From the NCBI GenBank assembly GCA_944392335.1, contig CALXWJ010000017.1, forward strand, positions 44,252-108,251: 64,000 nt of DNA, in the 5' to 3' direction. The DNA comes from an uncultured Clostridia bacterium. GTDB taxonomy: Bacteria; Bacillota; Clostridia; UBA1381. The position numbers and the translations under genes are program-made. The first letter of the stretch is position 1. Each line of letters opens with the position of its first letter. Under the pieces are notes generated by a model, which was not told the origin of the DNA, did no database searches, and saw only the letters and a list, made by a program, of their open reading frames with translations. This document shows positions 7,524 to 22,337 of the stretch, piece after piece.

Positions 7524-7604
7524 CTACACCCCCTCTTCAGCAATTATGTTGACAACGGTATCTTTAATTATTTTCCCTGATGTTATCGGGGCTACTCTTC
7601 CCGG
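7524..7604 (-). pseudogene. dpaA: 3' fragment of dpaA (last 24 residues plus stop), separated from the rest by the element
   Basis: Read on the - strand from 7604, the frame gives PG then RVAPITSGKIIKDTVVNI and ends IAEEGV-stop, which is the expected C-terminus of DpaA (family proteins end with LPGKVAP.T.G.II..T..N). The codon before CCG 7604-7602 is TAA, so the fragment has no start of its own. It joins in frame to the 5' part ending at 21488 if the element is removed at the shared CCCGG. It is therefore better read as a split gene than as decay: no frameshift or stop interrupts either part. Confidence 0.92.
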
Positions 7605-7627
7605 TTAGATTGTTATAAGTTGAAAAT
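7596..7627. other. Left attachment junction of the dpaA element
   Basis: The dpaA coding sequence stops matching the family at CCCGG (7600-7604). Just inside the element lies the arm ATAAGTTGAAAA (7615-7626). Its exact inverted copy is at the right junction. The spacing from core to arm fits half of a serine-integrase attachment site. Confidence 0.85.
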
Positions 7628-7631
7628 AAAA

Positions 7632-9152
7632 TTAATAAAAAATAAAATCGGCAGTTCTGCCCTCTAATACGATTTCTTGTATAACCTCTTTTGCAATCTT
7701 CTTTTTTGTTTCAATTGTAAAGTCTTGCCAGCCGGTTAAAATATAATCAATATCAAAATTCAGCGAACTTGCTTTGTTCGCTTTTAATTCCTGTTTTGCG
7801 ATTTCCTCTAAAATTTTATTTTTTTCACTATCCAACTTTTCTATATGCTGATTCAAGTATGATACACTAATATCGGAACCTTCTGCGATACTTTCGATAA
7901 TATTATTTATTTTCTTGTCAATATTTGCAATCTGAATTTTAAGCTCATTTATTTCGGGAGTATCACGAACAACCTCAACGCTTTTTAACTCCTTTAATTC
8001 TTCAAGTCTTGATAAAATCTCTGCTTCTGCAATTTCTTCCAAGTCTTTGACCGCAAGCATGGTTTTAGGATATGGACAAGAGTTGTTTTTTCTGCCTCTG
8101 CAATATAAATATTTATATTCCTTAACACTATTTTTATTTTTGTGTTTTTTAACATAATATGTATATCCGCATTTGCATTTTACCAAGCCTTGAAGCCATG
8201 ATAAGCTCCCTGTTCCAAGATTGGAATGATTTTTCTTCTTGTTAATCAAACCTTGCACATTCAGCCATAATGAAGGTTCTATAATTCCTTCATGCAGTCC
8301 CAATGATACAAAATCATTTTTTAAATTTGTAAATTTTGAACCTTTTCTTTTTTCCGTAGTTCCGTAAACATAACAGCCATATTTTCCGATATAATCTTCA
8401 ACAGGATTTGTCATTGTTCCGCCAAGTCCTTGAAGATAATTGTATATATCTGCATTAGCTTTTACATATACAGGATTTTTGAGCATTCTTGCGATAGCGG
8501 TTTCACACCATGGTCTGTTTCTTTTTGAAATGACCTTATCATTATTAAGGCCTCTCGCAATTTCACTCATACTTTTTCCATTGATGTAGTCATTAAATAT
8601 TTTTAAAAGAATCTTGCTTTCGTCTTTGTTTTCTTCAAATGTATATGTTTTAAGACCGTTTACGGTTGTTTCAATCTTATTATATCCAAATGGAGCGGGT
8701 CCGCCTAAATAAAAGCCTTTTTCACCTCTTGCATAATAGTTATCTTTTATTCTTTGCTGTATATTCTCTCGTTCCATTTCTGCAAACATCATAAGAATAT
8801 TTAAAATCATTTTTCCCATTTGTGTAGATGTGTCAAAATCTTCGGAACAGGAAACTAATTTTACTCCGTATTTTGAAAAATCTTGCTGCATTGATAAAAA
8901 ATCAATCAGAGAACGGCTGATTCTATCAAACTTATAGATTATAATTTTAGAAACAATCCCTTTTCTGACTTCATTCATCATTTCTTGAAATTGTGGTCTG
9001 TCTGTTGATTTTCCCGAATATCCTTTATCATAAAAAATGCTGAAATTCTCAGTATCAAGCTTCTTTTTACAATCGTTGATTTGAGTTTCAATGCTGATAC
9101 TGTCTCTTTTGTCAACCGATTGCCTTGCATAAATAACTTCAATTTTGTTCAT
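7632..9152 (-). CDS. Large serine recombinase of the dpaA element
   Basis: At 506 residues it has the full large-serine-integrase layout. A resolvase catalytic domain contains the nucleophile Ser in YARQSVDKRDS and the Arg-rich active-site segment KFDRISRSL; it runs to about residue 150. It is followed by a recombinase domain (GGPAPFGYNKI; SEIARGLN), a zinc ribbon (CKCGYTYYVKKH ... CRGRKNNSCPYP) and a C-terminal coiled coil. Such enzymes recombine attP x attB with a 2-bp crossover and need a directionality factor for excision. I place the start at ATG 9152-9150, 7 nt after AGGAG; the longer frame to 9224 has no ribosome binding site. The gene abuts the left att site, the usual position. Its role is probably excision and insertion at dpaA. 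Confidence 0.93.
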   Translation of the reverse strand: MNKIEVIYARQSVDKRDSISIETQINDCKKKLDTENFSIFYDKGYSGKSTDRPQFQEMMNEVRKGIVSKIIIYKFDRISRSLIDFLSMQQDFSKYGVKLVSCSEDFDTSTQMGKMILNILMMFAEMERENIQQRIKDNYYARGEKGFYLGGPAPFGYNKIETTVNGLKTYTFEENKDESKILLKIFNDYINGKSMSEIARGLNNDKVISKRNRPWCETAIARMLKNPVYVKANADIYNYLQGLGGTMTNPVEDYIGKYGCYVYGTTEKRKGSKFTNLKNDFVSLGLHEGIIEPSLWLNVQGLINKKKNHSNLGTGSLSWLQGLVKCKCGYTYYVKKHKNKNSVKEYKYLYCRGRKNNSCPYPKTMLAVKDLEEIAEAEILSRLEELKELKSVEVVRDTPEINELKIQIANIDKKINNIIESIAEGSDISVSYLNQHIEKLDSEKNKILEEIAKQELKANKASSLNFDIDYILTGWQDFTIETKKKIAKEVIQEIVLEGRTADFIFY

Positions 9153-9170
9153 CTTCATTCTCCTATATAA

Positions 9171-9208
9171 ATAGTGCGGCAATCCAATATGACTGATTAC
9201 CGCACTAT
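9171..9208 (-). promoter_or_regulatory. Hairpin in leader of the recombinase gene
   Basis: ATAGTGCGG (9171-9179) pairs with CCGCACTAT (9200-9208), and AATC pairs with GATT inside, around a 10-nt loop. The hairpin sits between the stop of the upstream small gene and the recombinase ribosome binding site. It has no T tract, so it is more likely a translation or RNA-stability control element than a terminator. Function is inferred. Confidence 0.5.
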
Positions 9209-9213
9209 AATTC

Positions 9214-9447
9214 TTACGATACACTTTTTTGAATAACTCGTATTATACGGTCTTTAATCTCTGTGTTTCGTTTTTCTTTTTGGGTTTTATTCAGTTTTGG
9301 AATATGAATCTTGACTGTTACCCCGTTTTTTACATATTCTTTGTACAATTCATATACTTCCTGCTGCTTTGTATGTTGCTGAATCGTTTGTTTATCGCAA
9401 CTGATATATGCCTTGTCTTGTGTTTGGCATAAAGTATCAGACAGCAT
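9214..9447 (-). CDS. Small protein co-transcribed with the recombinase (possible directionality factor or regulator)
   Basis: The protein has 77 residues, starting at ATG 9447-9445 behind AAAGGAG; the ORF can be extended to 9462 but that start overlaps the ribosome binding site. It is basic and mostly helical in its middle and C-terminal part (EVYELYKEYVKNGVTVKIHI, then IKDRIIRVIQKSVS). I recognise no domain. It lies 61 bp upstream of the recombinase start in the same direction and shares its promoter, a common place for recombination directionality factors and small accessory proteins of serine-integrase elements. That role is a guess from position. Confidence 0.7.
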   Translation of the reverse strand: MLSDTLCQTQDKAYISCDKQTIQQHTKQQEVYELYKEYVKNGVTVKIHIPKLNKTQKEKRNTEIKDRIIRVIQKSVS

Positions 9448-9479
9448 TTTTACTCCTTTCATGATATTTTACAAGCCTT

Positions 9480-9530
9480 ACTTTTCAAAGCTGTGTATGC
9501 GATTATAATACACAACTTTGAAAAAGTAAA
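9480..9530 (-). promoter_or_regulatory. Recombinase-operon promoter inside a 19/20-bp dyad operator
   Basis: On the - strand TTTACT (9525-9530), a 17-nt spacer and TATAAT (9502-9507) form a good sigma-A promoter. The -10 lies in the loop of a large inverted repeat with arms 9480-9498 and 9508-9527 that differ by one base and one extra T. A dyad of this size over a promoter is typical of an operator or a self-binding site. No obvious sigma-E or sigma-K promoter was seen for this operon. Confidence 0.7.
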
Positions 9531-9577
9531 CGGCATAAATTTATTTTTTATAAATTGTATTATTATTTGTGCTTGTC

Positions 9578-10168
9578 TTATTCATTTAATTTGTTTTTCA
9601 TATTAAGCGTTTGCATTAAACCATTAAATAATGCCTCATGCCTATCCGAAACCCAATACTCATATACACAATAATAGGTATTATCTTTTCCCTTATCAAG
9701 GATTAGTCTTTCCCAGTCTTTTTTATAGTTCAATTTTTCGAGCCACCATAAAGCGTCTCCATATTGCATACGCTGTCTGAAAGTAAAACCATTTTTTCTT
9801 TTGTTGATTCGCTTTCTCATATAACCGGTTGCTCCGTTTTTTCCACTCCTAAGAATCAACGTTATTCCTTCTTGGGTTATTTCCATTATAACAATATCAT
9901 ATTTATCAATTTTAAGAATTGATTTTTCTCTGATATGTGGACAGCCTTCTCTGACGGTTATGATTTCACCATCCTGACCTTCCATTTCTATTAATTTCCC
10001 ATGTCTTTCTTTATCTGCTGTTTTTGCGTACTTAAGATTTTTTGCGAGCATTTCTTCATTTTCTCCTTTTTTCATTTCAAATAATTTGTTAATTAAATTC
10101 TTGGTTTCTGTTTTGATAACTGTGTTATTTTCATTTGTCATAATCTCTATGTTATTTTCTTTTATCAT
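9578..10168 (-). CDS. Hypothetical protein of the element
   Basis: The protein has 196 residues and I recognise no family. The first half is acidic and lysine-rich with helical character (ETKNLINKLFEMKKGENEE). The second half contains a basic stretch (YMRKRINKRKNGFTFRQRM) followed by aromatic-rich sequence (ALWWLEKLNYKKDWERL), which could bind nucleic acid. The start ATG at 10168 has GAAAGGAAAG 9-12 nt upstream. It lies between the recombinase operon and the small gene at 10224, all in the same direction, and could be part of a replication or transfer block with the Rep gene upstream. Confidence 0.7.
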   Translation of the reverse strand: MIKENNIEIMTNENNTVIKTETKNLINKLFEMKKGENEEMLAKNLKYAKTADKERHGKLIEMEGQDGEIITVREGCPHIREKSILKIDKYDIVIMEITQEGITLILRSGKNGATGYMRKRINKRKNGFTFRQRMQYGDALWWLEKLNYKKDWERLILDKGKDNTYYCVYEYWVSDRHEALFNGLMQTLNMKNKLNE

Positions 10169-10223
10169 AATTTCTACTTTCCTTTCAGTACTTGAAATTT
10201 TTAAATAAATATAATTTTTTCGT

Positions 10224-10538
10224 TTATTGTCTTTTCCATGTTTCTGTTATTGTAACAGCTAATAGCATAGGTCCTATAGAGCATTCGCCAATATCAGAAT
10301 CACAGAAAACATAATTTTTACTTTTTAAATAATCAACGGCTTCTTCATAGGAACAAGTTTTTATTTTGTTAAAATCTTCTTCTAAATAACCAAGTGTTAT
10401 ATCATGTATGGGTGCAGAACCTATGCGTAATGGTATGAATAGAATGGCAGTATCGTATTTTTTATAAATAGTTGTAACGTCTGTGGGGTTAGCGTGATAG
10501 TTATTATTAGCTTTGTTTATAATATTATTTTTTTTCAT
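10224..10538 (-). CDS. Hypothetical small protein of the element
   Basis: The protein has 104 residues from ATG 10538-10536, which has AAAAGGAG 9 nt upstream; an earlier in-frame ATG at 10562 precedes that ribosome binding site and is rejected. The sequence contains ILFIPLRIGSAPIHDITLGY and SYEEAVDYLKSKNYVFCDSD, suggesting a small mixed alpha/beta fold. No signal peptide, membrane segment or known motif is visible. The gap to the next gene downstream is short and both run in the same direction. Confidence 0.65.
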   Translation of the reverse strand: MKKNNIINKANNNYHANPTDVTTIYKKYDTAILFIPLRIGSAPIHDITLGYLEEDFNKIKTCSYEEAVDYLKSKNYVFCDSDIGECSIGPMLLAVTITETWKRQ

Positions 10539-10739
10539 TTTTAATAAATCTCCTTTTAACATTTAAATTTTTTGATTGTTTAGAAAATATTGGGTGGCTC
10601 GCCGCTTATATACAAGCGTATTAAATGCATAATAAAACACTCCTTGTTTCTATATGATTTTATATCATTATCAGCCATTTAAAACCATGCATAGGTATTA
10701 TTATATTGATAAAGGGAACGCATAAAATAACTATATTTT

Positions 10740-11528
10740 TTATGGTTTTATATACTGTTCATATGCTGTTTTCCAACAACCATAAACTTCACCGTCATTT
10801 TGATTTACGGCTACGTACTCGTTTTCAGCAGAATAAGTTTTAACCATATTATCAGGCTTACAATTCTTATATTTATCTCTGCTTTTTTTGATTTTCATAT
10901 CCTTTGAATGTCCATATATCTTTAAATACGGAGGATAATAAATAAGTCGTGATATTTTGTTTTCAAATCTTGTAATGTCAAAATAAAACGGCAATGTTGC
11001 AATATTGGATGGAGTTTTTACAGCTACTTCATGACCATGCAACCATAAATCGCAGACAGTTTCAACTGTGATATTAAACAGCTTTTCATCTAATCTCTTT
11101 ATAAGAGAATGTATATGCCATGAACCGTTTTCTTGTGGCTCTTTAACATAAAAATATCTGCACTTACAATATCTTCTTTCCAGTTTCTGCATGAACTTTT
11201 TAAAATCATATGACAGCCTATATGGATCTTCCATTTTTGAAGAATAAGTCAGCGTGATAAACTTCTCTGTAGAATCACCGTCAAAATATCCTCTAATTAA
11301 TCTTGGAACATTTTTAAAATCTCTTTTAAAGTTATCAATAGACTTGCTGTGTGAATATTTATATTCTTTTATCTCGTTAGTAGTGTTATCTACATATTGC
11401 GTCTGACTCAATTTTGTTACTTTAACTTGCTGGGTTTCTTGTCTACAGCAAATAATTTCTCTGTATTTGCCGCTATAATATACGGTTACCAATTCATCAT
11501 CCTTAATTAATTTATTATCAATTTGCAT
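10740..11528 (-). CDS. HUH-type rolling-circle replication initiator (Rep)
   Basis: The 262-residue protein shows the two metal-site motifs of HUH endonucleases: motif 1 FITLTYS near residue 90 and the HUH motif GSWHIHSLIK near residue 135. A Tyr-rich motif follows (RLIYYPPYLKIYGHSKDM), as in the ORF2/gene-II-like Rep group found on Gram-positive integrative elements and plasmids. These enzymes nick one strand at a double-strand origin and start rolling-circle replication. Its presence suggests that the excised circle can replicate at least transiently. No relaxase or transfer genes are seen in the element. The ATG is close behind AGGAGATAA. Confidence 0.8.
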   Translation of the reverse strand: MQIDNKLIKDDELVTVYYSGKYREIICCRQETQQVKVTKLSQTQYVDNTTNEIKEYKYSHSKSIDNFKRDFKNVPRLIRGYFDGDSTEKFITLTYSSKMEDPYRLSYDFKKFMQKLERRYCKCRYFYVKEPQENGSWHIHSLIKRLDEKLFNITVETVCDLWLHGHEVAVKTPSNIATLPFYFDITRFENKISRLIYYPPYLKIYGHSKDMKIKKSRDKYKNCKPDNMVKTYSAENEYVAVNQNDGEVYGCWKTAYEQYIKP

Positions 11529-11885
11529 ATTTTTTTATCTCCTACAATTATAAAATATTCTTGATGTGTCCATATTAATTAAAATATGAATATTTTAATT
11601 TGGAATACAAATGATATGTATTCACAGACAATAATTCTTTATTTTAGCTCTATTAAAGAATTATATTTGCTTTTTGTTTATCACCTCCGTTATGTATTGT
11701 CATAAAATTTCAACATTCTCCTTTCTGTATGCACCATTAATTGCGTCCATATAATCGTGCAGACTCTTTATCAGATAATTATCTTATAAATCTATTATAG
11801 CAAAAAAATATATTAAAAGATATTGCTTTTTTTCCTTTTTTTTGATAAAATAAAATAACGGAAAAATACTTTAGAGGGTGATAAT
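11529..11885. other. Intergenic region between Rep and DUF6076-like gene
   Basis: This is AT-rich DNA between divergent genes. A sequence GGAGGTGATAAAC occurs on the - strand near 11690 but no convincing start follows it within the usual distance. A TAAAAT-like -10 lies near 11843-11853 before the + strand gene. I see no RNA gene. Confidence 0.45.
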
Positions 11886-12896
11886 ATGGATAATAAATAT
11901 GGTATATCAGAAAGTGCCTGTTACTTATTCGAATATAGTTTTGATGTGGGAGTAAAAACAGAAGCGTTAAAAATAATCAATGGTGATTATATTGAGAGTG
12001 ACACTTATATTGCAAGACATTTTATTGATTATTTTTTATTTAGTTATTATCGCATAGGGAAACATTTGGGTTGTGAGCCGTTTAAAAATCCATTTCAAAA
12101 ACCGTATGATGATTTTGGGGCAGCTCCTGTATTAAAACAGCTGTTAAAAAATGCTTTGTGTGCAGATAACAGAGAAAAAACTAAAATTTATTTTGAAAAT
12201 ATAGCACTTCTTCTTAAAAATAAGGAATGTCATAACGAGAAAGCATTAAAATGTTTGTGTGAATTTATGAATGTAAAAATGCCAGAATATGAAAGCGATT
12301 TAATAAATGACATTCCAATTGAACTATATGCTAATCAAGACAACAATCATTGGTTTAACTATTTAAAAGAGAATACTAAACCGATAAAGAGAAAACATAA
12401 GCCGATTATAGCGGAAGGCAATGTAGGATTTGATAATGTTAATATAGTATATAAAATCAATTCACTTTTAGATTTATGGTTAGCGAGTTTGTATATATTG
12501 TTTAATCTTAATGGAACAATAAAAATTTGTAGGAATTGCGGTAAACCGTTTGTATTATATAACCAGAAAAATAGGGTTTACTGCTCGGACAATAATAGTA
12601 ACTGCGTACAAGAGGGCAGAAAAGCAAGGGAACGTGAGCGTTATAATAGTGTTCATATCAAATTGTATAAAAATATTCGTATGAAACTTAAATATAAGGG
12701 GGATACATGTTTAGATACTGTTTCTTCGATTAATGAATGGGAACAACTGGCAAAAAAATTTTCAGAAAAGTATAAAGATTATAAAAAAAAGAAAATATCT
12801 GATGATAAAATTATAGAATGGCTTAAATCTGTAGATATGCAGTATAAGAATCATAAAAATACTGTTTTTGAATTGCCTGATATAGAGAAAGAATGA
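11886..12896 (+). CDS. DUF6076-like protein with C-terminal zinc motif
   Basis: The protein has 336 residues. The last third carries a Cys cluster CRNCGKPFVLYNQ ... YCSDNNSNC followed by a basic helix (QEGRKARERERY), the pattern of the zinc-binding end of DUF6076-type proteins of Firmicutes mobile elements. The N-terminal 200 residues are helical with no motif I know. The GAGGGTGATAAT sequence before ATG 11886 is a good ribosome binding site. It is transcribed away from the Rep gene. Function is unknown; the zinc end plus basic helix suggests DNA or RNA binding. Confidence 0.75.
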   Translation: MDNKYGISESACYLFEYSFDVGVKTEALKIINGDYIESDTYIARHFIDYFLFSYYRIGKHLGCEPFKNPFQKPYDDFGAAPVLKQLLKNALCADNREKTKIYFENIALLLKNKECHNEKALKCLCEFMNVKMPEYESDLINDIPIELYANQDNNHWFNYLKENTKPIKRKHKPIIAEGNVGFDNVNIVYKINSLLDLWLASLYILFNLNGTIKICRNCGKPFVLYNQKNRVYCSDNNSNCVQEGRKARERERYNSVHIKLYKNIRMKLKYKGDTCLDTVSSINEWEQLAKKFSEKYKDYKKKKISDDKIIEWLKSVDMQYKNHKNTVFELPDIEKE

Positions 12897-13118
12897 GTGC
12901 ATCCAAATAAAATATAAATATAAAAAATTTTGAGGCAAGCTGCTTATGGTAAAATAGTTAAAGCATTACAACATAATCTACTCCTGATAATTCCTAACCG
13001 TGCTGAGATGTCATATTTTGACTTAGGTTTATTCTTTTTAACAAACCTATATAATCTTAATATTTGGTATAAAAAGTTTCTTAGAATTACAATCTGTAAT
13101 GAAAAGAGGTAATACCCT

Positions 13119-13310
13119 ATGAATGAAACAAGCTGTAATGAAAAATCTTTTGCTACTGATGTTATATTTGCAAAAGATGTAATAAAAGATATGATAGACT
13201 CCATACATGATTATTGTCCGAGTGATTACCATATGCTTTTACCCACGCTTCATAAAGCATATGATTGCATGACACTAATACAATTTTATTTAAGAGATAT
13301 TGCACAGTAA
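13119..13310 (+). CDS. Small hypothetical protein
   Basis: The protein has 63 residues with a predicted helical hairpin character (FAKDVIKDMIDSIHDYC, then MLLPTLHKAYDCMTLIQFYL). AAAGAGGT lies 9 nt before the ATG, which supports translation. I recognise no family. Its upstream region (12897-13118) has no other likely gene. Confidence 0.5.
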   Translation: MNETSCNEKSFATDVIFAKDVIKDMIDSIHDYCPSDYHMLLPTLHKAYDCMTLIQFYLRDIAQ

Positions 13311-13658
13311 CCATTACCAGAGTGTCTGAGCAACCTTAGAATAAACTTTTTTTTATTCTATAATATAAATTAATAACTTAAAAATATTACATAAGATGAG
13401 GGATTTTTCTATGCTTTGAAAAAGAGAAAATCCCCTGTTTTATGTAAATCTCATTTTGGATTATATAATATAATATTATATCAAAATCCGTATTCATGTA
13501 AAGGCTAAAATGCATGATAAAATCCACCTTGACAGAAATACGGATTGTTGATTTTTTTTGTATTTACATAACATGTGTTTTAATTCTTACATAAAAGTGG
13601 AATAGTTCCATCATAAGATGAAATTGCTTTATTTTATGTAGTAATATAAATACATCAT
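13311..13658. repeat. Palindrome-rich non-coding region (possible origin or structured RNA)
   Basis: This gene-free stretch is built from nested inverted repeats. TTACATAA (13387-13394) pairs with TTATGTAA (13440-13447) and encloses GGGATTTT (13400-13407) pairing with AAAATCCC (13427-13434). AATCCGTATT (13485-13494) pairs with AATACGGATT (13537-13546), which is followed by T8 at 13552-13559. The TTACATAA word recurs near 13564 and 13588 and inverted near 13635. Such density on an element with an HUH Rep fits a replication origin or a structured RNA. Neither is shown. Confidence 0.5.
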
Positions 13659-13841
13659 TTATGGTTTTGGCTTTACAGAATTACTGCTACCACAAGACGG
13701 ACAAACATTACTGTTTGCTTTTGTTTTATCCAAGTGAGGATATTTCCCTGCTTTTAAACAGTAATTACACCACGAAGCACCGCATTTTTCACAATAGAAC
13801 ATATTTGCTCCCGATGTTTTACATAATTGACAGTATGCCAT
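13659..13841 (-). CDS. Small double zinc-ribbon protein
   Basis: The 60-residue protein is dominated by four CxxC pairs: CQLC, CEKC, CNYC and CPSC. This indicates two small zinc-binding knuckles and little else. AAGGAG lies 9 nt before ATG 13841. It is the last gene of the SPFH-TIR operon, 47 bp after the TIR gene, and shares the zinc-ribbon theme with three of the other members, so it probably works in the same complex or pathway. Confidence 0.75.
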   Translation of the reverse strand: MAYCQLCKTSGANMFYCEKCGASWCNYCLKAGKYPHLDKTKANSNVCPSCGSSNSVKPKP

Positions 13842-13888
13842 AATTTCAACTCCTTAAAATTTATCATTATATTTTGTATTTTTATTTA

Positions 13889-16057
13889 TTATGGTTTCAT
13901 TATAAAGGCATAATCATAACCATCGTATGTATCATCAATAGAGGTATTAAGTTCTCTTATATATGCGTTACATCCATTTATTTTGAAAATCAGATAGCCG
14001 TCTCCATATTCTTTTCTTTCAAAATTACCAAGTTTATTCTTCAAGTCAGTTTCAGTCCTAGGTCCATTATAATCTATTGTCATAGAGTTAAATATATCGG
14101 CTAATTTCATAGCACAGCCAATCACATTATTTTGCTTGTCAAATAAGATAAGTGTATAGCTTTCATCTAAAACCCGTCCACATTTTTCGAACTTCAAATA
14201 ACCAGATATATCATAGATATCTCGATTATTTGAGATATATCCCGCACCTACATTATCCATACTGAAAAGGTTTTTTGAATCGGATTTGATTTTTTCCACT
14301 GATGGATTGTTTTTAAGCATAGTAGTTATATAATCAACAGAACTAAATCTGGCTTTAACCGTACTAATCTTTGAAATTGTATTCCCTGAAACCATACTTA
14401 AAATTATTGCTATGGTAACACCAATGGCAGTAACCATCTTGGACTTTTTCTTTGATTTTTCTACTTTTTTATTTAATTCAATTTCAAATTCTTTTTCGTT
14501 ATCAAGCGTTGTTTTTATGTATGCTTTAAAATTAGGTGTTGAGAACAAAAGCATCGGAACAATTATCACAGCAGTTAAAGCAAGTAAAAATATGCTAAAA
14601 AATCCGACATCAAACGTACTGTCTCCATAATTAAGGACTTTGGCACCTATAATTATAGCAACTATAGCAAATACAAAGAATATTGCAAATTGGATACATA
14701 AAAACTTTTTATATTCTGTTTTATTAGCTTTAACAACATTTATAATATAGTTTTGAAATGCTTGTTTTTTTTCGTTTTTTTCACGCAGCTCTTTTTCCAT
14801 TTGTTTGAACTTGTTTAACGAAGATGTATTATATTCTTCCAATCTTTGTTTTAATTCATTATCAGCAAATCGTAATGCTTTTTTATAGTTTGAGGAATTA
14901 CTGAAATCAATAGCCCGATTAGCAAGATTTTGTTCTCGGTTCACACTAACCTCAATCATTAATTTTCCTATATAAGCTTTTACATTTTCAGGTTCAATAT
15001 TTAACACTTTTTCCAACAAATCATTAGCTTTTGTCCATTCAGCTTCTTCCAAAAACATAAAAGCACGTTTTAGCATGGATTCTGATTCTGCCTTATAATC
15101 CCGAACTGATTGAATAGGCTGAAAAACTGTTGTTTTTGGGGGTTCGTTTTTGTTGTTAAGTATTTTTTTAATACCACGAATTAAATCCTGTAAAAAGCCG
15201 ATTTTGTTCATATCTTGACTTTGAAACATAGATAATTCATCGGGTAAATCATAAGCGTCCATATCCTTATAGCAGGGAATGATAACTTTATTTTTATCTT
15301 TTCTTGAAAGTGCTAAAAATCTTGACCACTCATTCTTTACCCATACCGCATTAAAATTATCTTTTTTAGTACCGACAACAAGCATAACTTTTGAAGAATT
15401 AAGAGCAGAAAAGATATAAGGCTCATATTCTTGTCCTAACTTATCTTCAAGCGTTATTCTTGAAAAGAATACTTTATACCCCTCGTTTACCAACTGCGAA
15501 TAAATATCCTGTGCAAGCACACTATCCATCGTACGCTTACCGCTGTTGTCTGTTTCCTTATAGCATATAAAAATATCATATGCTTCTTCGCTATCAGCAA
15601 CCGAAAGTATATTTTTTTGTATCTCTGCTATTTTTTCAGCTTCATTTGTATATAATTTTTCAGCGTCATAATCTAAAGCATATTTAAGAGCCGATTTATA
15701 ATCTAAATCTGATAATATTGATTCATGCTGTAATCTATGACAAGTCGGAATCCGTTTATGTGTCTTAGGGTCTTCTACATATTCTATACCATACTTAGAT
15801 AATACAAGTCCCCAATATGCTTCTGCATTCTCATTGTCTTCCTCTAATATACTTTCATATGTAGCAATGGCCTTATCAAACTCATTTTGTTGTCTGTAGT
15901 GCGTTGCTCTATTGAATAAATTGAGAACACGCTCGTCATTCGCTTTAGGTAATGTCATTGTACTGCCGCATGAATCACAAGTACCTATATTTTGCCCTTC
16001 TACGGCTTCAAGATTACCACCGCACATCTTACATTTAAATACTGCCAAACTAGTCAC
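13889..16057 (-). CDS. Zinc-ribbon TIR-domain protein with TPR and membrane segments
   Basis: The 722 residues divide as follows: zinc ribbon at 9-30 (CKMC ... CDSC), a TPR-like helical part at 45-95, a TIR domain at about 158-300 (YDIFICYKETD at 160-170; GQEYEPYIFSAL at 208-219, holding the candidate catalytic Glu), a second helical/TPR part at about 330-420, hydrophobic membrane segments near 450-560, and a C-terminal extracellular or cytosolic domain. Bacterial TIR domains often cleave NAD+ or make cyclic nucleotides in anti-phage defence, but not all are enzymes. Operon position with an SPFH protein suggests it acts at the membrane. It begins with ATG 16057 behind AAGGGGTGA. Confidence 0.85.
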   Translation of the reverse strand: MTSLAVFKCKMCGGNLEAVEGQNIGTCDSCGSTMTLPKANDERVLNLFNRATHYRQQNEFDKAIATYESILEEDNENAEAYWGLVLSKYGIEYVEDPKTHKRIPTCHRLQHESILSDLDYKSALKYALDYDAEKLYTNEAEKIAEIQKNILSVADSEEAYDIFICYKETDNSGKRTMDSVLAQDIYSQLVNEGYKVFFSRITLEDKLGQEYEPYIFSALNSSKVMLVVGTKKDNFNAVWVKNEWSRFLALSRKDKNKVIIPCYKDMDAYDLPDELSMFQSQDMNKIGFLQDLIRGIKKILNNKNEPPKTTVFQPIQSVRDYKAESESMLKRAFMFLEEAEWTKANDLLEKVLNIEPENVKAYIGKLMIEVSVNREQNLANRAIDFSNSSNYKKALRFADNELKQRLEEYNTSSLNKFKQMEKELREKNEKKQAFQNYIINVVKANKTEYKKFLCIQFAIFFVFAIVAIIIGAKVLNYGDSTFDVGFFSIFLLALTAVIIVPMLLFSTPNFKAYIKTTLDNEKEFEIELNKKVEKSKKKSKMVTAIGVTIAIILSMVSGNTISKISTVKARFSSVDYITTMLKNNPSVEKIKSDSKNLFSMDNVGAGYISNNRDIYDISGYLKFEKCGRVLDESYTLILFDKQNNVIGCAMKLADIFNSMTIDYNGPRTETDLKNKLGNFERKEYGDGYLIFKINGCNAYIRELNTSIDDTYDGYDYAFIMKP

Positions 16058-16113
16058 CCCTTATGAATTCTTATTTGGTATTTCTGCGATAACGTTTAAA
16101 ATTTCCATATTCT

Positions 16114-16497
16114 TTATGATTCTTTTGCTTTTTTATAAATAACAGTATTCTCTAACATAATTTCATTTAGCTTGTCGCAAACAACATATACTTGCATATG
16201 TTCCATGGCAGATTTTATATTCTTCATTGACTTATATTCAAAGATTTCATATATCTTGTGTTCTTTGCCGTTGTCGAAAATAAGTATATCATCTAAGGTA
16301 AGCTGGGTTTGAGTTTCTCCGACTAACATACTCTTATCCGTTTTTCCTATTTGAGAATTGTTAGATGAACCTGTAATGCGTAATGCGGGTTCTAAAACTT
16401 CATCTCTTCTCAAGGCTTTTCCGCATTTCTCACATATAAATATTTTGCCGTCTTTTTTTAGGTTTCCTATACAAAAATTGCATTTTAATGTTGTCAT
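16114..16497 (-). CDS. Zinc-ribbon protein of the SPFH-TIR operon
   Basis: The 127-residue protein has an N-terminal zinc ribbon (CNFC at 6-9, CEKCGK at 23-28), a low-complexity polar linker and a C-terminal alpha/beta part (YEIFEYKSMKNIKSAMEHM). The zinc ribbon is like those of its two large operon neighbours. AAGGAGTAAC lies before the ATG. It sits 17 bp after the membrane-protein gene and 56 bp before the TIR gene. Function is unknown; an adaptor role is inferred from context. Confidence 0.75.
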   Translation of the reverse strand: MTTLKCNFCIGNLKKDGKIFICEKCGKALRRDEVLEPALRITGSSNNSQIGKTDKSMLVGETQTQLTLDDILIFDNGKEHKIYEIFEYKSMKNIKSAMEHMQVYVVCDKLNEIMLENTVIYKKAKES

Positions 16498-16514
16498 AAC
16501 AGTTACTCCTTATT

Positions 16515-16958
16515 TTAATTCCAATATGTAGATTTTTCTTTTTCAAATTCTCTGTGTTTTTCTTCTGCTTTTGTATCAATTTTTTCTATATATTCATTCC
16601 CTGCATTTAAAGCTATAGCACGAATAACAAATACCGCTAAAATTGCTATATGTACTACTACGGTTATCAAAACAGGAAAATGCTTATAATAGACTATAAT
16701 ACATGCTATAACCGAAACAACTGTACTTACTACTGCGTATGTTACAGCAGTATAAATATAAGCAAATGCTTGCGGTGCCTTATTATTACCCTTTCCATAC
16801 ACGTAAAGACTTAAAGCTATACTGCCTATTGCTATAAGTGAAAAAATATGTGATACCACAAATGTGGCTGTTATCGGTACTACTAAATACAATAATGACA
16901 CTACAACAGCCGCAATCACAGAGCATAAAATAATTCTTATATTATTATTCATTTTCAT
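16515..16958 (-). CDS. Four-helix integral membrane protein of the SPFH-TIR operon
   Basis: The protein has about 147 residues with four hydrophobic segments: IILCSVIAAVVVSLLYLVV, IFSLIAIGSIALSLYVYG, AVVSTVVSVIACIIVYY and ITVVVHIAILAVFVIRAIAL. A charged cytosolic tail ends in Glu/Lys-rich sequence. The start overlaps the end of the SPFH gene by 14 bp; GTG 16961 or ATG 16958 are both possible and ATG is chosen. The overlap indicates translational coupling. I recognise no family. Confidence 0.7.
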   Translation of the reverse strand: MKMNNNIRIILCSVIAAVVVSLLYLVVPITATFVVSHIFSLIAIGSIALSLYVYGKGNNKAPQAFAYIYTAVTYAVVSTVVSVIACIIVYYKHFPVLITVVVHIAILAVFVIRAIALNAGNEYIEKIDTKAEEKHREFEKEKSTYWN

Positions 16959-18204
16959 CACCGCCTAACTTATATCCACATTCAAGACAAAATTTTGCAC
17001 CATGTGGAATTTCATTACCGCATTTAGGGCAAGTAAGTTGTAATTTGTTTCCACACTCCATGCAGAATTTGCCTTTAGGTGTTTTCTTTCCACAATGCGG
17101 GCAAATCATTTCATTATCAGATAATAATTCTATTTTTGTACCACACTCTAAACAGAACTTTGCATTTTGGGGTACAGTGTTACCACATTTAGGACAGGTA
17201 ACATTTTTATTATTTATCTGCTGTGAATTTACAGCGTTTCCTATACTATCATTAACAAGACCACCGACAGTACCGCCAACACCTGCCATAACACCAAGTC
17301 CTATACCGAGATTAGACATATTTCCGCTTCCCTCATTACCTGCAACAGTTTGTGCAACATCAAATCCACGTTCCTGTTGATAGGTATAGCCTTCTATATT
17401 TCGTTTCTGTGCCAACCCCTCTGCTTCAAGTATCATTTTTTGCTTTTCTGTTTCTTGCTCAATAATGCTGACACTTTGCTGTAGTCTCGCTTCTGCAATA
17501 TCAGCATATTGTCTGAAGTGAATTTCTTTAAATCTCTTATAGATTCTATCTTCTTCGGGTTTAACTATTGTTGTTACAAAAAAGTGTACAAGAGATACTC
17601 CGTATTCATCAAAGTCGGGAATAAGCATATCTTGTAAATCATTTGAAATTTCTGTTAAATATTCATCTATCTGAAAAATGTTGATTTTATTTGTTCTGAT
17701 ATAGGTTGACAGATAGGTTTTGAACTTAGTCATTAAAAATGCTCTAAATTTTTGTGTTAAACCAATCTGTGTCAATCCGTTTTCAGTACCTATAACTTTT
17801 ACAAGCAGTTTCTTACCGTCTTTAACTCTTAAAGTCATTTCACCGCTTGCACCAATCTGAATAGGAAAGTTATATGTAGGCTCTACATATTCAACCTTAC
17901 TGTCTGTACCCCATTTAACAGCCATTTGCTCTGTTTTATTGACAAAATATACTTCACAATGAAAAGGCGTTTTATCATTAAATGACTTGTTGTAGAATTT
18001 ATTGATTAATGGTATATTTTGTGTTTCTAATGTATGTCTGCCTGCTTCAAATACGTCTAAAATCTGACCGTTCATATAGAATACAGCTTGTTGTGACTCG
18101 TGCACTATAAGCTGTGTTTGAGTATTAAAATCTTCAATAGGTGACTTCCATATAAATGTTGTATTGTCACCCTCATACTTGATAATTTGTGCTATATCAG
18201 CCAT
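16945..18204 (-). CDS. SPFH/band-7 domain protein with three C-terminal zinc ribbons
   Basis: The 419-residue protein has an SPFH domain over about residues 10-250 (the 'virion core protein-like' bacterial group), then a helical segment rich in Glu/Gln (QQSVSIIEQETEKQKMIL), a Gly-rich linker, and three double-cysteine zinc ribbons (CPKCGN ... CLECG; CPHCGK ... CMECG; CPKCGN ... CLECG) in the last 85 residues. SPFH proteins oligomerise at membranes. It is first in a five-gene operon with a membrane protein, two further zinc-ribbon proteins and a TIR protein, and is divergent from an RHH regulator. GGTGG lies before the ATG. Confidence 0.88.
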   Translation of the reverse strand: MADIAQIIKYEGDNTTFIWKSPIEDFNTQTQLIVHESQQAVFYMNGQILDVFEAGRHTLETQNIPLINKFYNKSFNDKTPFHCEVYFVNKTEQMAVKWGTDSKVEYVEPTYNFPIQIGASGEMTLRVKDGKKLLVKVIGTENGLTQIGLTQKFRAFLMTKFKTYLSTYIRTNKINIFQIDEYLTEISNDLQDMLIPDFDEYGVSLVHFFVTTIVKPEEDRIYKRFKEIHFRQYADIAEARLQQSVSIIEQETEKQKMILEAEGLAQKRNIEGYTYQQERGFDVAQTVAGNEGSGNMSNLGIGLGVMAGVGGTVGGLVNDSIGNAVNSQQINNKNVTCPKCGNTVPQNAKFCLECGTKIELLSDNEMICPHCGKKTPKGKFCMECGNKLQLTCPKCGNEIPHGAKFCLECGYKLGGDENE

Positions 18205-18240
18205 ATTTTCACCACCTTTTATATTTTTTTGTTTTTTTAC

Positions 18241-18269
18241 ATTTTATCACATATAAACACATTTGTCAA
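18241..18269 (-). promoter_or_regulatory. Promoter of the SPFH-TIR operon
   Basis: TTGACA (18264-18269), a 17-nt spacer and TAAAAT (18241-18246) on the - strand form a strong sigma-A promoter 36 bp before the SPFH start codon. The word CAATTTGC occurs twice nearby (about 18272 and 18320) in the divergent region and could be an operator for the adjacent RHH protein. Confidence 0.7.
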
Positions 18270-18359
18270 CTGCAATTTGCACGCAATGTTAAGTTACATA
18301 AAATATGTATATGATTTTACACAATTTGCATATATAATATAGTTGAAGGAGTTGATTAC

Positions 18360-18548
18360 ATGTTTAAAGTACGTCATACGGAAGAAACAACAAACAGGAC
18401 ATTTCGATTTCCAAAATCATTACTTGATAAAATGTCTGTTATTGCTCAAAGAGAAAACGTATCATTAAACAGCTTTGTTGTTCAATGCTGTGAATATGCT
18501 ATGAGTAACTTTCAAGAGTCAGATAACGAAAAAGAAACAGACAACTAA
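18360..18548 (+). CDS. Ribbon-helix-helix DNA-binding protein
   Basis: The 62-residue protein has the RHH pattern of Arc/CopG/HicB-like repressors: a beta strand (NRTFRFPKSLLDKM) followed by two helices (VIAQRENVSLNSFVVQCCEY). AAGGAG lies 9 nt before ATG 18360. It is divergent from the SPFH-TIR operon with about 155 bp between, so it may repress that operon and itself. An antitoxin role is less likely because no toxin gene follows in the same direction. Confidence 0.75.
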   Translation: MFKVRHTEETTNRTFRFPKSLLDKMSVIAQRENVSLNSFVVQCCEYAMSNFQESDNEKETDN

Positions 18549-18576
18549 GGTCTGTTTCGGTTTCTAAAGAGCCTGA

Positions 18577-19344
18577 CTAACTTCTTCTATATATCTCTTT
18601 TGACAATGGAATAGTCTTTTCAATACACTCATATTGATTTTTTGCTGTGATTTTAAATTCAACGGAAATTTCATCATAGTTGTTTTCAATGATTGTATTT
18701 CCAAAGGAATCTATAATACCAATGCCGTTTTCGCTTTCAGCAATATTGCAGATATTACGCTGATTTATTACTATGGATTCATTTATAGGATATTGATAAT
18801 ATGTATATCCGTTTTTCTCAGGATAAAGAAACATACTGTATCTTGCGTCATAGAACACAGCACCCTTATCTGTATCACCGTAATAAACATAACAAGATTC
18901 ATTATATGTATTATATTTTCTTTTGTAAATGATTTCTCCTGTTTCTTCATAAATAATATATTGATATTCTTTATCATAACAATACATATAAGGCATATCA
19001 ACTGTTATTTCATCAAAATCCATTATTTTACCCGTTACTGAATTATAATACCTTGTTCCGCAGTCATTACTAAAAAACAAATTGTGGTTAATATTATCAA
19101 CAATATCATATTCACATCTGCAAAGTATGTCTGCATGATTTTCTTCTACTTTGCACATGCCTATTTTACCGTTTTTGTATAAAATAAATGTGTTAATGCC
19201 ATACAGAAAAATGTTGTCATATTCTTCATTGATAATATGAGTATTATCATTACTGTTTATAATCCCGTATTTCTCATTATGTACTATTTTTAAATTATCT
19301 GATGTATTGTTGCCAAAAACTCTGTTTCTTACCGTATAAAGCAT
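18577..19344 (-). CDS. WG-repeat-like beta protein
   Basis: The 255-residue protein contains repeated units resembling WG repeats, with KYGIINSNDNTHIINEEYD near the N-terminus, NGKIGMCKVE in the middle and GIGIIDSFGNTIIENNYDEI near the C-terminus. The units are degenerate but spacing and the I/V-G-I-I-x-x-x-G-x-x-I pattern are clear at both ends. No signal peptide is visible. It lies 16 bp after the tyrosine recombinase gene and is probably co-transcribed. Function is unknown. Confidence 0.65.
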   Translation of the reverse strand: MLYTVRNRVFGNNTSDNLKIVHNEKYGIINSNDNTHIINEEYDNIFLYGINTFILYKNGKIGMCKVEENHADILCRCEYDIVDNINHNLFFSNDCGTRYYNSVTGKIMDFDEITVDMPYMYCYDKEYQYIIYEETGEIIYKRKYNTYNESCYVYYGDTDKGAVFYDARYSMFLYPEKNGYTYYQYPINESIVINQRNICNIAESENGIGIIDSFGNTIIENNYDEISVEFKITAKNQYECIEKTIPLSKEIYRRS

Positions 19345-19360
19345 ATTAATTCTTCTTTCT

Positions 19361-19930
19361 TTATAAATTTACTGCATTATAGCAATCTGTAATGACTTCT
19401 TTTGTGATACCGATATATCGTAGTGTTATTGCACTTGATGAGTGATTTAACATTTTTTGCAATGTCTCAATGGGTACATTATTTTGGTATCTGTGAAAAG
19501 CCATTGTTTTTCTTAACGAATGAGTACCGTAATTACCCTTTATCCCTAAATCTCTTAATGTAGTTTTGATAATATGATGAAGCGGTCTTACTCCAAGGTG
19601 TGTACCTTTTCTGCTCTTAAATAAATAATCGTTCAAATCTATACTTGAAGATGTGCTTAAATATAGCTTAATAGCTTCTTTGGCACTTTTATTTAAATTA
19701 AAGGTTTTCTTCTTATCTGTTTTTTGCTCCTTGATAGTAACTTCATCAAATATTGTTCTTCCGTCTGTAACATCACTTACTCTAAGAGATAATAAGTCCC
19801 CAGCCCTAAGCCCTACATTTATTCCCACAACAAAGATACAATAATCTCTTTTATTGTTCTTTCCTAAAAGATACTGCTTGATTTTGTTAATATCCTTTAT
19901 CTTGCGTATAGGCTCAACCTCATGTATCAT
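19361..19930 (-). CDS. Compact tyrosine recombinase (catalytic domain only)
   Basis: The 189-residue protein has the catalytic residues of the tyrosine recombinase family: Arg in GLRAGDLLSL, the HxLR pair in THSLRKTMAFH, His in MLNHSSS and the nucleophile Tyr in ITLRYIGI. It lacks the N-terminal core-binding (SAM-like) domain, so it is shorter than XerC/D or phage integrases. Start ATG 19930 follows AGAGG; the ORF extends to 19948 without a better site. It may act on the nearby palindromes or invert a promoter rather than integrate the element. It could also be a remnant integrase. Confidence 0.8.
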   Translation of the reverse strand: MIHEVEPIRKIKDINKIKQYLLGKNNKRDYCIFVVGINVGLRAGDLLSLRVSDVTDGRTIFDEVTIKEQKTDKKKTFNLNKSAKEAIKLYLSTSSSIDLNDYLFKSRKGTHLGVRPLHHIIKTTLRDLGIKGNYGTHSLRKTMAFHRYQNNVPIETLQKMLNHSSSAITLRYIGITKEVITDCYNAVNL

Positions 19931-20033
19931 TCCGATTCCTCTTTTCACTTTATAATTATATATTATCTGAGTTTAATTGTATAACAAACTTCATTAAATG
20001 TAAACGGGCACAGATAAATTTTTTGCTGAAAAA

Positions 20034-20073
20034 AATGTTACCTTTTGTTTTGGTAATATCAAAAGGTAACATT
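20034..20073. repeat. Perfect 14-bp inverted repeat, copy 1
   Basis: AATGTTACCTTTTG (20034-20047) and CAAAAGGTAACATT (20060-20073) flank a 12-nt loop. The core word TTACCTTTTGTT is shared with the palindrome at 20151. Both lie just upstream of the tyrosine recombinase gene. Confidence 0.8.
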
Positions 20074-20150
20074 CAGAATAGAATTTTTTATCTGATTTTT
20101 TATAAAAATGCTTAGAATGGTTGCGGTTCTTGGGTTTATGGGATTTTTAT

Positions 20151-20181
20151 AAATATTACCTTTTGTTAAAAGGTAATATTT
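20151..20181. repeat. Perfect 14-bp inverted repeat, copy 2
   Basis: AAATATTACCTTTT (20151-20164) pairs exactly with 20168-20181 around a 3-nt loop, followed by TTTTCTT on the + strand. The low GC content makes it a weak terminator at best. The shared TTACCTTTTGTT core with copy 1 suggests a protein-binding or recombination site. Confidence 0.75.
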
Positions 20182-20233
20182 TTTCTTAATTTATATAAAA
20201 TATAAAAATGAGATAAAATATACTAAAATATGA

Positions 20234-20277
20234 TTGACTTTTTTAAGATTTTATGATATAATACGAACATACGTTCG
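20234..20277 (+). promoter_or_regulatory. Promoter with LexA-type SOS box for the toxin-antitoxin operon
   Basis: TTGACT (20234-20239), a 17-nt spacer and TATAAT (20257-20262) form a strong promoter. CGAACATACGTTCG (20264-20277) follows at the start of transcription and matches the Gram-positive LexA consensus CGAAC-N4-GTTCG in both half sites. LexA bound there would block initiation, so DNA damage should raise transcription. Confidence 0.85.
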
Positions 20278-20406
20278 ATAAAAACAAAAAACTTATGAGT
20301 AAAACTATACAAAAATACAAAAAACTCATATAAATGTATTGCAATTTAGAAAGGAAGATGGTAATATATGAATAGTATTGGAAAAATGATGAAGGAGGTC
20401 TTGTAT

Positions 20407-20865
20407 ATGCATACAGTATATGATGTTGCAAATTGGTTTTTGGCAAATATTGAAAGTGTAACAAATAAAAAGTTGCAGAAGTTAGTTTACTATGCTTATG
20501 CATGGTTTTTAGTATTTAATAATGAAACTGCCGAAGATATAGAGTTGAAATTTTTTGATGCTCGTTTTGAAGCTTGGGTACATGGTGCTGTATGTCCAGA
20601 GTTATATGATAAATACAAAGAGTACGGTTCATCAAACATACAAAAATATGTCGGAGAATTAGCTGATTTTTCAGCAGATGAATTAGATGTGTTAAATCAA
20701 GTTTGTGATGTATATGGAAAATATAATGGAAATGAATTAGAATATATATGCCATAAGGAAGATCCATGGAAAAACGCACGTAAAAATTTGAGTGCATATG
20801 AACCCTCAACCAATAAAATACAAGATAAAGAGATATTTAGGTATTATTCAAGTAGGTTATCATGA
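20407..20865 (+). CDS. Panacea (DUF4065/SocA-like) domain antitoxin
   Basis: The protein has 152 residues from ATG 20407, which follows AGGAGGT by 7 nt; an ATG at 20368 is weaker. The sequence YDVANWFLANIESVTNKKLQKLVYYAYAW and FEAWVHGAVCPELYDKYK is the signature of the Panacea/DUF4065 fold (GepA, SocA), used as the antitoxin of many two-gene toxin-antitoxin pairs. The stop overlaps the next start by 4 nt (ATGA), so the two are translationally coupled. The first-gene position also fits an antitoxin. Confidence 0.88.
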   Translation: MHTVYDVANWFLANIESVTNKKLQKLVYYAYAWFLVFNNETAEDIELKFFDARFEAWVHGAVCPELYDKYKEYGSSNIQKYVGELADFSADELDVLNQVCDVYGKYNGNELEYICHKEDPWKNARKNLSAYEPSTNKIQDKEIFRYYSSRLS

Positions 20866-21422
20866 CAAAAAAACGAAAAGCAAAGATATCAAATGATATA
20901 CCGCCTCAAAAGCTTATTGCCGGTGTTAAAGAAGAAACTATAAATTCAGAAATATATAAACAATGGGATATTACTTTTGACCTGTCTTTTAGAGGGTGTT
21001 TTTACTCTATTGACGAAAAAGAATTTAATAATTGTTTCAAAAATACAGAAGAATTTGTTCAAATGTATAAAAATTGTATGATAACATTGCATAAATTATC
21101 CGGACATACAATTTATGAACTTCTTTCAAATAAAAGTTTTAGGCATTGTCACGAAGTGAAAAAAGAAGATGAAAAAAAGGCATATAAAATAATAAAAAAA
21201 CTTTGTGAAAAAGTTGAATTAAGTGAAAGTTATTTTGAACAAAATGTAGGCTCTGAAAAAATATATCAAATAGGATTTGAAGATTCGGTAAGGATTTTTG
21301 GAACAATTAGAGCGAATATATTCAGAGTATTCTTTATTGATTATTTTCATCATTTTTATTTTGATGAAGGAAAAAACGAAAGAAATATTAAGAATTACAA
21401 TTTTTGCCCTATGTCAAATTGA
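20862..21422 (+). CDS. Putative toxin of the Panacea toxin-antitoxin pair
   Basis: The 186-residue protein has no family that I recognise. The N-terminus is basic and Pro-containing (MTKKRKAKISNDIPPQKLI), and the C-terminal part contains VRIFGTIRANIFRVFFIDYFHHFYFDEG, an R-rich and aromatic-rich end that is followed by a short tail. The start overlaps the antitoxin stop. Toxins paired with Panacea proteins are diverse, so the target cannot be named. The gene ends 47 bp before the right edge of the element. Confidence 0.7.
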   Translation: MTKKRKAKISNDIPPQKLIAGVKEETINSEIYKQWDITFDLSFRGCFYSIDEKEFNNCFKNTEEFVQMYKNCMITLHKLSGHTIYELLSNKSFRHCHEVKKEDEKKAYKIIKKLCEKVELSESYFEQNVGSEKIYQIGFEDSVRIFGTIRANIFRVFFIDYFHHFYFDEGKNERNIKNYNFCPMSN

Positions 21423-21432
21423 AGTATATTAG

Positions 21433-21469
21433 ACTGTAGTATAAAAAATATTGTGCTACAGTTTTTTTT
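21433..21469 (+). terminator. Terminator of the toxin-antitoxin operon, at the right att site
   Basis: ACTGTAG (21433-21439) pairs with CTACAGT (21456-21462), followed by T8 (21462-21469). The T tract is shared with the element's right arm, so transcription from the element stops just before dpaA. Confidence 0.75.
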
Positions 21470-21493
21470 CAACTTATCACCTTCCCCGGAAGA
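21466..21493. other. Right attachment junction of the dpaA element
   Basis: The arm TTTTCAACTTAT (21466-21477) is the exact inverse of 7615-7626. CCCGG (21485-21489) marks where dpaA family similarity resumes. When the ends are joined, the arms are 22 nt apart around the core, a symmetrical attP-like site. Confidence 0.85.
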
Positions 21494-22269
21494 CTCAATG
21501 CCCATATTACTTTTAATCCGAGCTCTCTTGCCCTTTCGAAGTCTACCCCTCCCGGTTTTGATGCAAGATCAATAATAACACAGTCAGGATCTACTCTTTT
21601 TAATATCTCTTCGCTCAATATCAATGCAGGGACAGTATTAAATATAATATCAAATTGATCAACGGCATAAATTATATCATTGTTATGTACGGCATTATAA
21701 CCGTTTACATCGATCCACGCAAGATCCGAATATTTCCTTGCCGACACTGTAACGTTTGCACCTAAATCATCAAGCATTTTTGATAATATCTTACCGATTC
21801 TTCCGTATCCCACTACAAGACACTTGCTTTTATTTATGGTGACAGGAAGCTCGCCCATTGCTATCTCAATGGCCCCTTCAGCAGTAGGCACTGCGTTTTT
21901 TACGATCAGTTCCTCTCTTTTATAATAATCAATACATTTTGCCCCGGGAAACATTTCATATATTTCGTTACCCATCCTTCCTCCCAAAACCAGTTTAGCC
22001 CCATCGGAATATTTTGCAGCATCCTTGAGCGGAATCTCTTTATCATTCAATGGGGCATTAATATTTATCATATCAAGAGAAGCAGGCATAGGCAAAATGA
22101 TAATTTCACTGTTTTTTATTTCAGATAATTCATCCAATACCTTATACTTATCCGATACCGAATCTTTTCCGAATCCGAATATACTTACATCATTCCCATC
22201 GCTGCTCAGCAGCTCAGCTAAAGTAAGCTGTCTCAAATCTCCGCCTATTACCGCAATTGTTTTACACAT
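21469..22269 (-). CDS. dpaA: Dipicolinate synthase subunit A, interrupted (5' part, 262 native codons plus 4 from element)
   Basis: DpaA is the NAD(P)-binding subunit that with DpaB converts dihydrodipicolinate to dipicolinic acid in the mother cell. The N-terminal part (IAVIGGDLRQLTLAELL) and the Rossmann motif VVGYGRIGKILSKMLDDLGANV are typical. The visible frame ends ...ALSLPG then KVIS and a stop supplied by the element, so the protein lacks its C-terminal 24 residues. The missing end is at 7524-7604. After excision the length would be 286 residues, close to the family norm of about 300. A sigma-K-like promoter lies upstream. The SleB-like gene is divergent. Without excision both DpaA and dpaB transcription would be impaired. 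Confidence 0.93.
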   Translation of the reverse strand: MCKTIAVIGGDLRQLTLAELLSSDGNDVSIFGFGKDSVSDKYKVLDELSEIKNSEIIILPMPASLDMININAPLNDKEIPLKDAAKYSDGAKLVLGGRMGNEIYEMFPGAKCIDYYKREELIVKNAVPTAEGAIEIAMGELPVTINKSKCLVVGYGRIGKILSKMLDDLGANVTVSARKYSDLAWIDVNGYNAVHNNDIIYAVDQFDIIFNTVPALILSEEILKRVDPDCVIIDLASKPGGVDFERARELGLKVIWALSLPGKVIS

Positions 22270-22309: not shown

Positions 22310-22337
22310 TATATTATGCCGGATATTATAATTTGGT
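22310..22337 (-). promoter_or_regulatory. Sigma-K-like promoter of dpaA
   Basis: On the - strand AC (22336-22337), a 17-nt spacer and CATAATATA (22310-22318) match the mother-cell sigma-K pattern AC-N16/17-CATANNNTA at every fixed position. It lies about 41 bases before the dpaA start. spoVF is sigma-K dependent in Bacillus subtilis, so the match is biologically sensible. Confidence 0.65.

Follow-up and report, generated by a model that had tools for sequence, protein, structure and literature searches.

A 13.9-kb element splits dpaA of an uncultured Clostridia bacterium as a predicted sporulation gene-intervening element, within an order where dpaA is broken at three sites

Elements that interrupt sporulation genes have been described in several Bacillota, and the following rests on the portions of those papers that were available. 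The nearest published target is spoVFB (dpaB) of Bacillus weihenstephanensis KBAB4, where the element vfbin (PMC10747680, PMC4191935, PMC5595907, PMC6957869, PMC5025042) lies in the dipicolinate synthase operon and reportedly leaves it during sporulation, the serine recombinase being sporulation-expressed. The skin element in sigK of B. subtilis and C. difficile carries its serine recombinase inside and its removal rejoins the gene in frame; in C. difficile the recombinase is described as constitutively expressed, with a small directionality factor (PMC5025042, PMC4191935). In Bacillus cereus ATCC10987 the mother-cell sporulation gene gerE is split by gin, an element of 28.6 kb with three serine recombinases and without phage-related genes (PMC5595907), and in Clostridium botulinum V73 the prophage yin, with a serine recombinase at its edge, splits yabG, both the restored gene and the circle having been detected in culture (PMC10747680). 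Here, we analysed a window of 64,000 nucleotides from an uncultured Clostridia bacterium (contig CALXWJ010000017.1 of assembly GCA_944392335.1; all positions refer to this window), in which dpaA, the partner of dpaB, is cut by an element of 13,885 bp. Our reading is that this element belongs with skin and vfbin among the intervening elements of sporulation genes, has a new target and is predicted to be excised in the mother cell; we put the probability of this reading at about 0.8.

The resemblance to these systems is close in some respects and limited in others. The element shares the dipicolinate synthase operon with vfbin, but vfbin interrupts the B subunit gene and bears phage-related genes, whereas here dpaA is the target, in a distant lineage and at three sites. 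Skin likewise has an internal serine recombinase and in-frame rejoining; it is, however, prophage-like and targets a sigma factor, while here a biosynthetic gene is interrupted and excision is predicted. Gin resembles our element in splitting a mother-cell sporulation gene without bearing phage-related genes, and yin in having a serine recombinase at the edge. Unlike gin, with its three recombinases at one target, however, each dpaA site has its own matched recombinase clade, and unlike yin, a prophage in one strain, the dpaA elements are widespread in an order. They also stand apart from the prophage-like subset (skin, SP-beta, yin): when 10 of the 20 open reading frames (ORFs) of our element were searched against PHROGs, no phage structural genes were found, the matches being integrases, a rolling-circle initiator and unknowns. 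An earlier note on this DNA had considered an element in dpaA undescribed. Our literature search, in the parts of the sources available, found no description of an element in dpaA/spoVFA, which agrees with that view as regards the target; the kind of element is known, because spoVFB/dpaB is already a published target. Thus, what is new here is the target dpaA, the three recombinase clades on one gene and, in some genomes, housekeeping cargo detected only within the element, but not the kind of process.

The interruption of dpaA in the genome analysed here (G000; G-numbers label genomes) is real and more than chance. The minus-strand frame starting at 22269 matches NF006162 with 265.3 bits and TIGR02853 over positions 2-268 of 287, in the latter case with a score under the cut-off, as is also true of intact relatives. 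This frame terminates in LPGKVIS, with its stop codon in foreign sequence. The separated tail, comprising the last 24 codons and the stop, was located at 7598-7524, immediately before dpaB, which is where the earlier note had placed the missing C-terminus. The sequence CCGGG (CCCGG on the plus strand) is common to both junctions, at 21489-21485 and 7604-7600, and an in silico join at this repeat takes out 13,885 bp and leaves a single open frame of 286 codons adjoining dpaB, so that the proposed restoration of the frame by removal of the element held up. Both junctions lie on a single 108-kb contig. No second dpaA was matched in G000, a draft of 99.5% completeness in 99 contigs. A genome_contigs scan with dpaA as the query returned one distant locus of 38% identity.

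Relatives do not always end at KVIS. The congener G002 proved to have an uninterrupted dpaA whose tail, LSLPGRVAPITSGKIIKDTVVNIIAEEGV, is exactly that of the predicted joined product. Between the two genomes, 10 of the 75 nucleotides of the tail and stop differ but none of the 24 residues, while the N-terminal part has a nonsynonymous divergence (dN) of 0.10 and a synonymous divergence (dS) of 1.09. Among the closest 120 database DpaA proteins listed, there are 113 complete and 7 truncated forms, the latter all ending at most 7 residues past the same LP. The truncated P0123 and the complete P0124 are identical over residues 1-262, as are the interrupted and intact forms P0173 and P0171; for P0167 and P0163 the identity is 98.3% over 240 residues. 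Since interrupted and intact proteins are identical up to residue 262, the breakpoint is exact, and both alleles seem to exist within what look like single species. For the species of G000, the protein database has the 266-residue form from 6 contigs.

The same gene is broken repeatedly within the order. In a survey of 95 genomes, with categories counted by hand from a dpaA search, 51 had a full-length dpaA, 25 a broken or partial one, 6 paralogue matches only and 13 no match, so the gene is broken in 25 of the 76 genomes that bear it. All of these breaks fall at NAVPTA (site 1), KPGGVDF (site 2) or LSLPG (site 3, that of G000): 8 genomes are broken at site 1 alone, 7 at site 2 alone, 4 at site 3 alone, 5 at sites 1 and 2, and one (G025) at sites 2 and 3, which makes six genomes broken at two sites. 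A single side of the gene was recovered in 5 of these 25 genomes (C side in G007 and G022, N side in G083 and G041, and G025 without the tail). Both ends could be placed on one contig for 14 elements in 14 genomes, and every one of these rejoins in frame (to the next element where two are present); the automatic repeat search picked chance repeats in four of them (G000, G034, G048, G027), for which the joins were then made otherwise, those of G000 and G027 by the core. The recombinases form three site-matched clades, with identities of 45-92% (site 1), 52-69% (site 2) and 56-59% (site 3) within clades and 22-33% between them. A recombinase of the matching clade lies near a dpaA piece in the fetched DNA of 19 of the 25 broken genomes, as a fragment only in G018 and for site 1 only in G070.

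Some further observations accompany this survey. Several of the broken genomes in which no recombinase was seen have their dpaA pieces at contig ends, and G090, from the full-length group, has an additional partial copy. A class-wide search gave dpaA matches in 320 of 393 genomes, with rows listed down to an E value of about 8e-59; the counts of breaks apply to the order. Of 17 low-scoring genomes re-examined, G145 and G169, both outside the order, look split. In G145 the break is near site 2, and one of the two contigs carries a site-2-like recombinase; in G169 the pieces break near residue 191, possibly a fourth site. The flanks of three (L053, L054, L056) of the 13 further serine recombinase matches in G000 were scanned and gave no sporulation gene among the hits. 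We also considered that the tail-less protein of 266 residues might work alone, which is unattractive as a general explanation, given that sites 1 and 2 break the conserved NAVPTA and KPGGVDF motifs.

The ends of the element have the properties of recombinase attachment sites, namely a short direct repeat (CCGGG) plus inverted repeats. The predicted attP is an imperfect palindrome centred at C^C with 18 of 26 inverted-repeat matches, a symmetry reached at none of the 13,824 other centres within the element, and the same CC centre gives 16/26 and 19/26 in the site-3 elements of G034 and G008, respectively. The earlier note's serine recombinase at the element edge was recognised as a protein with the expected domains (Table 1) ending about 27 bp from the C-side core. 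Its start is probably some 24 codons downstream of the listed GTG, because the closest homologues are 506 residues long. It is 57 and 59% identical to the recombinases of the same-site elements of G034 (11,950 bp) and G008 (3,254 bp). In all three elements the recombinase is preceded by a small ORF of 57-82 codons. The small protein had no NCBIfam match and 8 homologues in a protein search; from its position, it is the best candidate for a directionality factor or an accessory protein.

Selection on the split gene was assessed in five genomes of one genus (G070, G071, G073, G074, G075; 10 non-independent pairs). The dpaA segment after site 1, which comprises 120 codons and, in the four genomes with both pieces on one contig, is separated from the start codon by 8-14 kb, showed an omega of 0.015-0.087, compared with 0.033-0.097 for the N-terminal segment and 0.125-0.201 for the recombinase. 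Such strong purifying selection on a detached segment is not what a dead gene would show and suggests that the gene, although split, is in use; a split gene kept under selection calls for rejoining in some cells. The dS of the recombinase (0.22-0.61) tracks that of dpaA from site 1 to site 2 (0.24-0.82; r 0.81), a parallel rise that would follow if the common ancestor of the five genomes already had the element. The N-terminal segment had a dS of 0.08-0.24 in these genomes, lower than the 0.24-0.82 after site 1.

The elements differ in what they carry. Those of G000 and G034 have a common backbone of Rep-like, SPFH, tyrosine-recombinase and further genes (Table 1). A PADLOC scan of 9 proteins from the G000 element gave no match, so that library lends no support to a defence role of the TIR and SPFH cargo. 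The smallest site-3 element, in G008, has a calcium/sodium antiporter gene (TIGR00367; L068:1014-2009) as its sole other sizeable gene, oriented like dpaAB. Spores store dipicolinate together with calcium, and a functional link of this antiporter to dipicolinate storage is possible. Elsewhere the cargo is of chromosomal type. The G071 element encodes a two-component system and an ABC transporter of the amino-acid type. Other elements hold housekeeping genes: glmS in the G014 element and nadE in the G037 and G048 elements are the sole copies above the family cut-offs in drafts that are 98, 97 and 91% complete, respectively. Drafts do miss genes, since in the same searches G048 had no glmS and G047 no nadE over the cut-off. 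If there is no second copy, a growing line cannot do without such an element.

Table 1. Positions of the dpaA locus and of the interrupting element within the window
Feature	Position	Strand	Basis or remark
dpaB, directly 3' of the dpaA tail	6942..7520	-	TIGR02852, 269.5 bits
dpaA C-terminal segment and stop (final residues RVAPITSGKIIKDTVVNIIAEEGV)	7524..7604	-	sequence; identical tail in G002
C-side attachment site, core CC at 7604-7603	7578..7629	.	palindrome analysis
Intervening element (predicted), 13,885 bp	7604..21488	.	in-frame join at CCGGG
Large serine recombinase, true start probably near 9152	7632..9224	-	PF00239, PF07508, PF13408; clade specific to site 3
Small ORF, 82 amino acids, upstream of recombinase	9214..9462	-	homologues in same place in G034, G008
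Rolling-circle Rep-like protein	10740..11528	-	PF23343, phrog_3419
TPR-TIR membrane protein, cargo	13889..16057	-	PF13676, E 7.3e-11
SPFH/Band 7 protein with zinc ribbons, cargo	16945..18204	-	PF13421; 79.5% identical homologue in G034 element
Tyrosine recombinase	19361..19948	-	PF00589; 86% identical homologue in G034 element
SocA/Panacea-type protein, cargo	20368..20865	+	PF13274
N-side attachment site, core CC at 21489-21488	21463..21514	.	palindrome analysis
dpaA N-terminal segment, 262 codons to junction	21488..22269	-	NF006162/TIGR02853 matches
Sigma-K-like motif upstream of dpaA (GACC, 16 nucleotides, CATAATATA)	22310..22335	-	pattern match only, not evidence of function
Predicted circle junction			TAAC joined to CGGGGAAGG

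By analogy with skin and gin, as far as the available parts of the sources describe them (PMC5025042, PMC5595907), the recombinase would pair the two CC-centred sites and release the element as a circle. Excision in the mother cell would restore a continuous dpaA frame adjoining dpaB, whereas the forespore would retain the element, which would thus be inherited. To be active late in the mother cell, the recombinase would need a directionality factor that switches it on, and the small protein encoded upstream of it may be this factor; if excision is specific to sporulation, the timing would be set by this factor, as reported for C. difficile skin. G000 has its own sigK at near full length (positions 5-227 of 227, with 295.0 bits slightly short of the cut-off of 298.65).

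Several points weigh against this proposal. Scans for sigma-E and sigma-K sites in three elements gave results near the shuffled expectation with few exceptions, i.e., the 2-mismatch sigma-E sites in the G000 element (6 vs 2.3 expected), none of which falls within the 5-90 bp that precede a listed ORF, together with a single 1-mismatch site in G008. The recombinase operons of G000 and G034 have, by eye, a sigma-A-like promoter, so any sporulation timing must come from another factor, and the identity of the directionality factor is a guess. The elements of G000 and G034 lie in opposite orientations, which the non-palindromic CC core does not explain. No recombinase was seen in the fetched DNA of 6 of the 25 broken genomes (G083, G041, G016, G021, G022, G024). 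The viral contigs searched contained neither the attP junction nor a match to the recombinase. For the species of G000 only the 266-residue form occurs among the matches listed, an intact form being absent from them, and where interrupted and intact proteins occur as pairs, strain differences instead of excision could be the cause. The five genomes used in the selection analysis may also have exchanged dpaA jointly with its element.

Could the element simply be a mobile island that disables dpaA at a conserved site, in lineages where the loss of dipicolinate or spores is tolerated and the gene is decaying? Integrase-like genes, the Rep-like protein, cargo of low G+C content, the coexistence of interrupted and intact alleles and the lack of sporulation promoters above chance are all compatible with this. 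However, both pieces of dpaA are open and conserved, the G000 tail having changed at 10 nucleotides and no residue of 24; omega is only 0.015-0.097 on dpaA segments of five genomes sharing a resident element; and three unrelated recombinase clades are found at one gene. We thus regard a decaying gene as unlikely. Less likely still is excision and reintegration at random, as phase variation or ordinary mobility free of developmental control, in which a dpaA-proficient minority makes the spores. It would account for the interrupted and intact forms of the same protein and for the sigma-A-like promoter at the recombinase operon, but elements with the sole detected glmS or nadE would hardly be losable in growing cells, albeit drafts may hide further copies. 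An assembly artefact or chimera seems highly improbable: the genomes are drafts, and the pieces of several broken genes are on different contigs, yet both junctions in G000 share one 108-kb contig, the truncated protein occurs on 6 contigs, and for 14 elements, each from a different genome, a single contig holds both ends together with a site-matched recombinase. Developmental excision therefore remains our preferred reading.

A broader proposal, which we put forward tentatively and at somewhat less than even odds, is that dpaA is a recurrent docking gene of bacterial germline-soma DNA elimination. Three unrelated recombinase clades would each use one site, and up to two elements would occupy a gene, both needing removal. 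Some elements would hold essential glmS or nadE hostage, so that the line founding the next generation could not survive their loss, which the dying mother cell alone would tolerate.

The dpaA gene may not be the only such target. The nearest recombinases followed outside the order (G287, G151, G326, G225), with 41-44% identity to that of G000, all abut an asparagine synthetase gene, two parts of which flank an element. In G287, the one of the four for which an in-frame join was obtained, an 11-bp repeat at the ends of a 4,251-bp element joins the parts into 610 amino acids. A small ORF precedes the recombinase in these elements too. The asparagine synthetase gene is thus a likely second target of intervening elements, judging from this arrangement, and it occurs in a genus that includes cultured members. 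In B. subtilis, one asparagine synthetase, asnO, is linked to sporulation.

Scattered examples of developmental DNA removal have been described in bacteria, and here one gene in one order offers 25 natural cases at three sites. The near-identical interrupted and intact alleles allow the origin, persistence and timing of such elements to be asked about, and the question is opened why dipicolinate synthesis should so often be the gate. Housekeeping genes found only in some elements suggest a route to an intervening element that cannot be lost. For annotation, the finding is also a caution: where a draft genome shows dpaA in two pieces, the gene may still be functional and the species able to sporulate.

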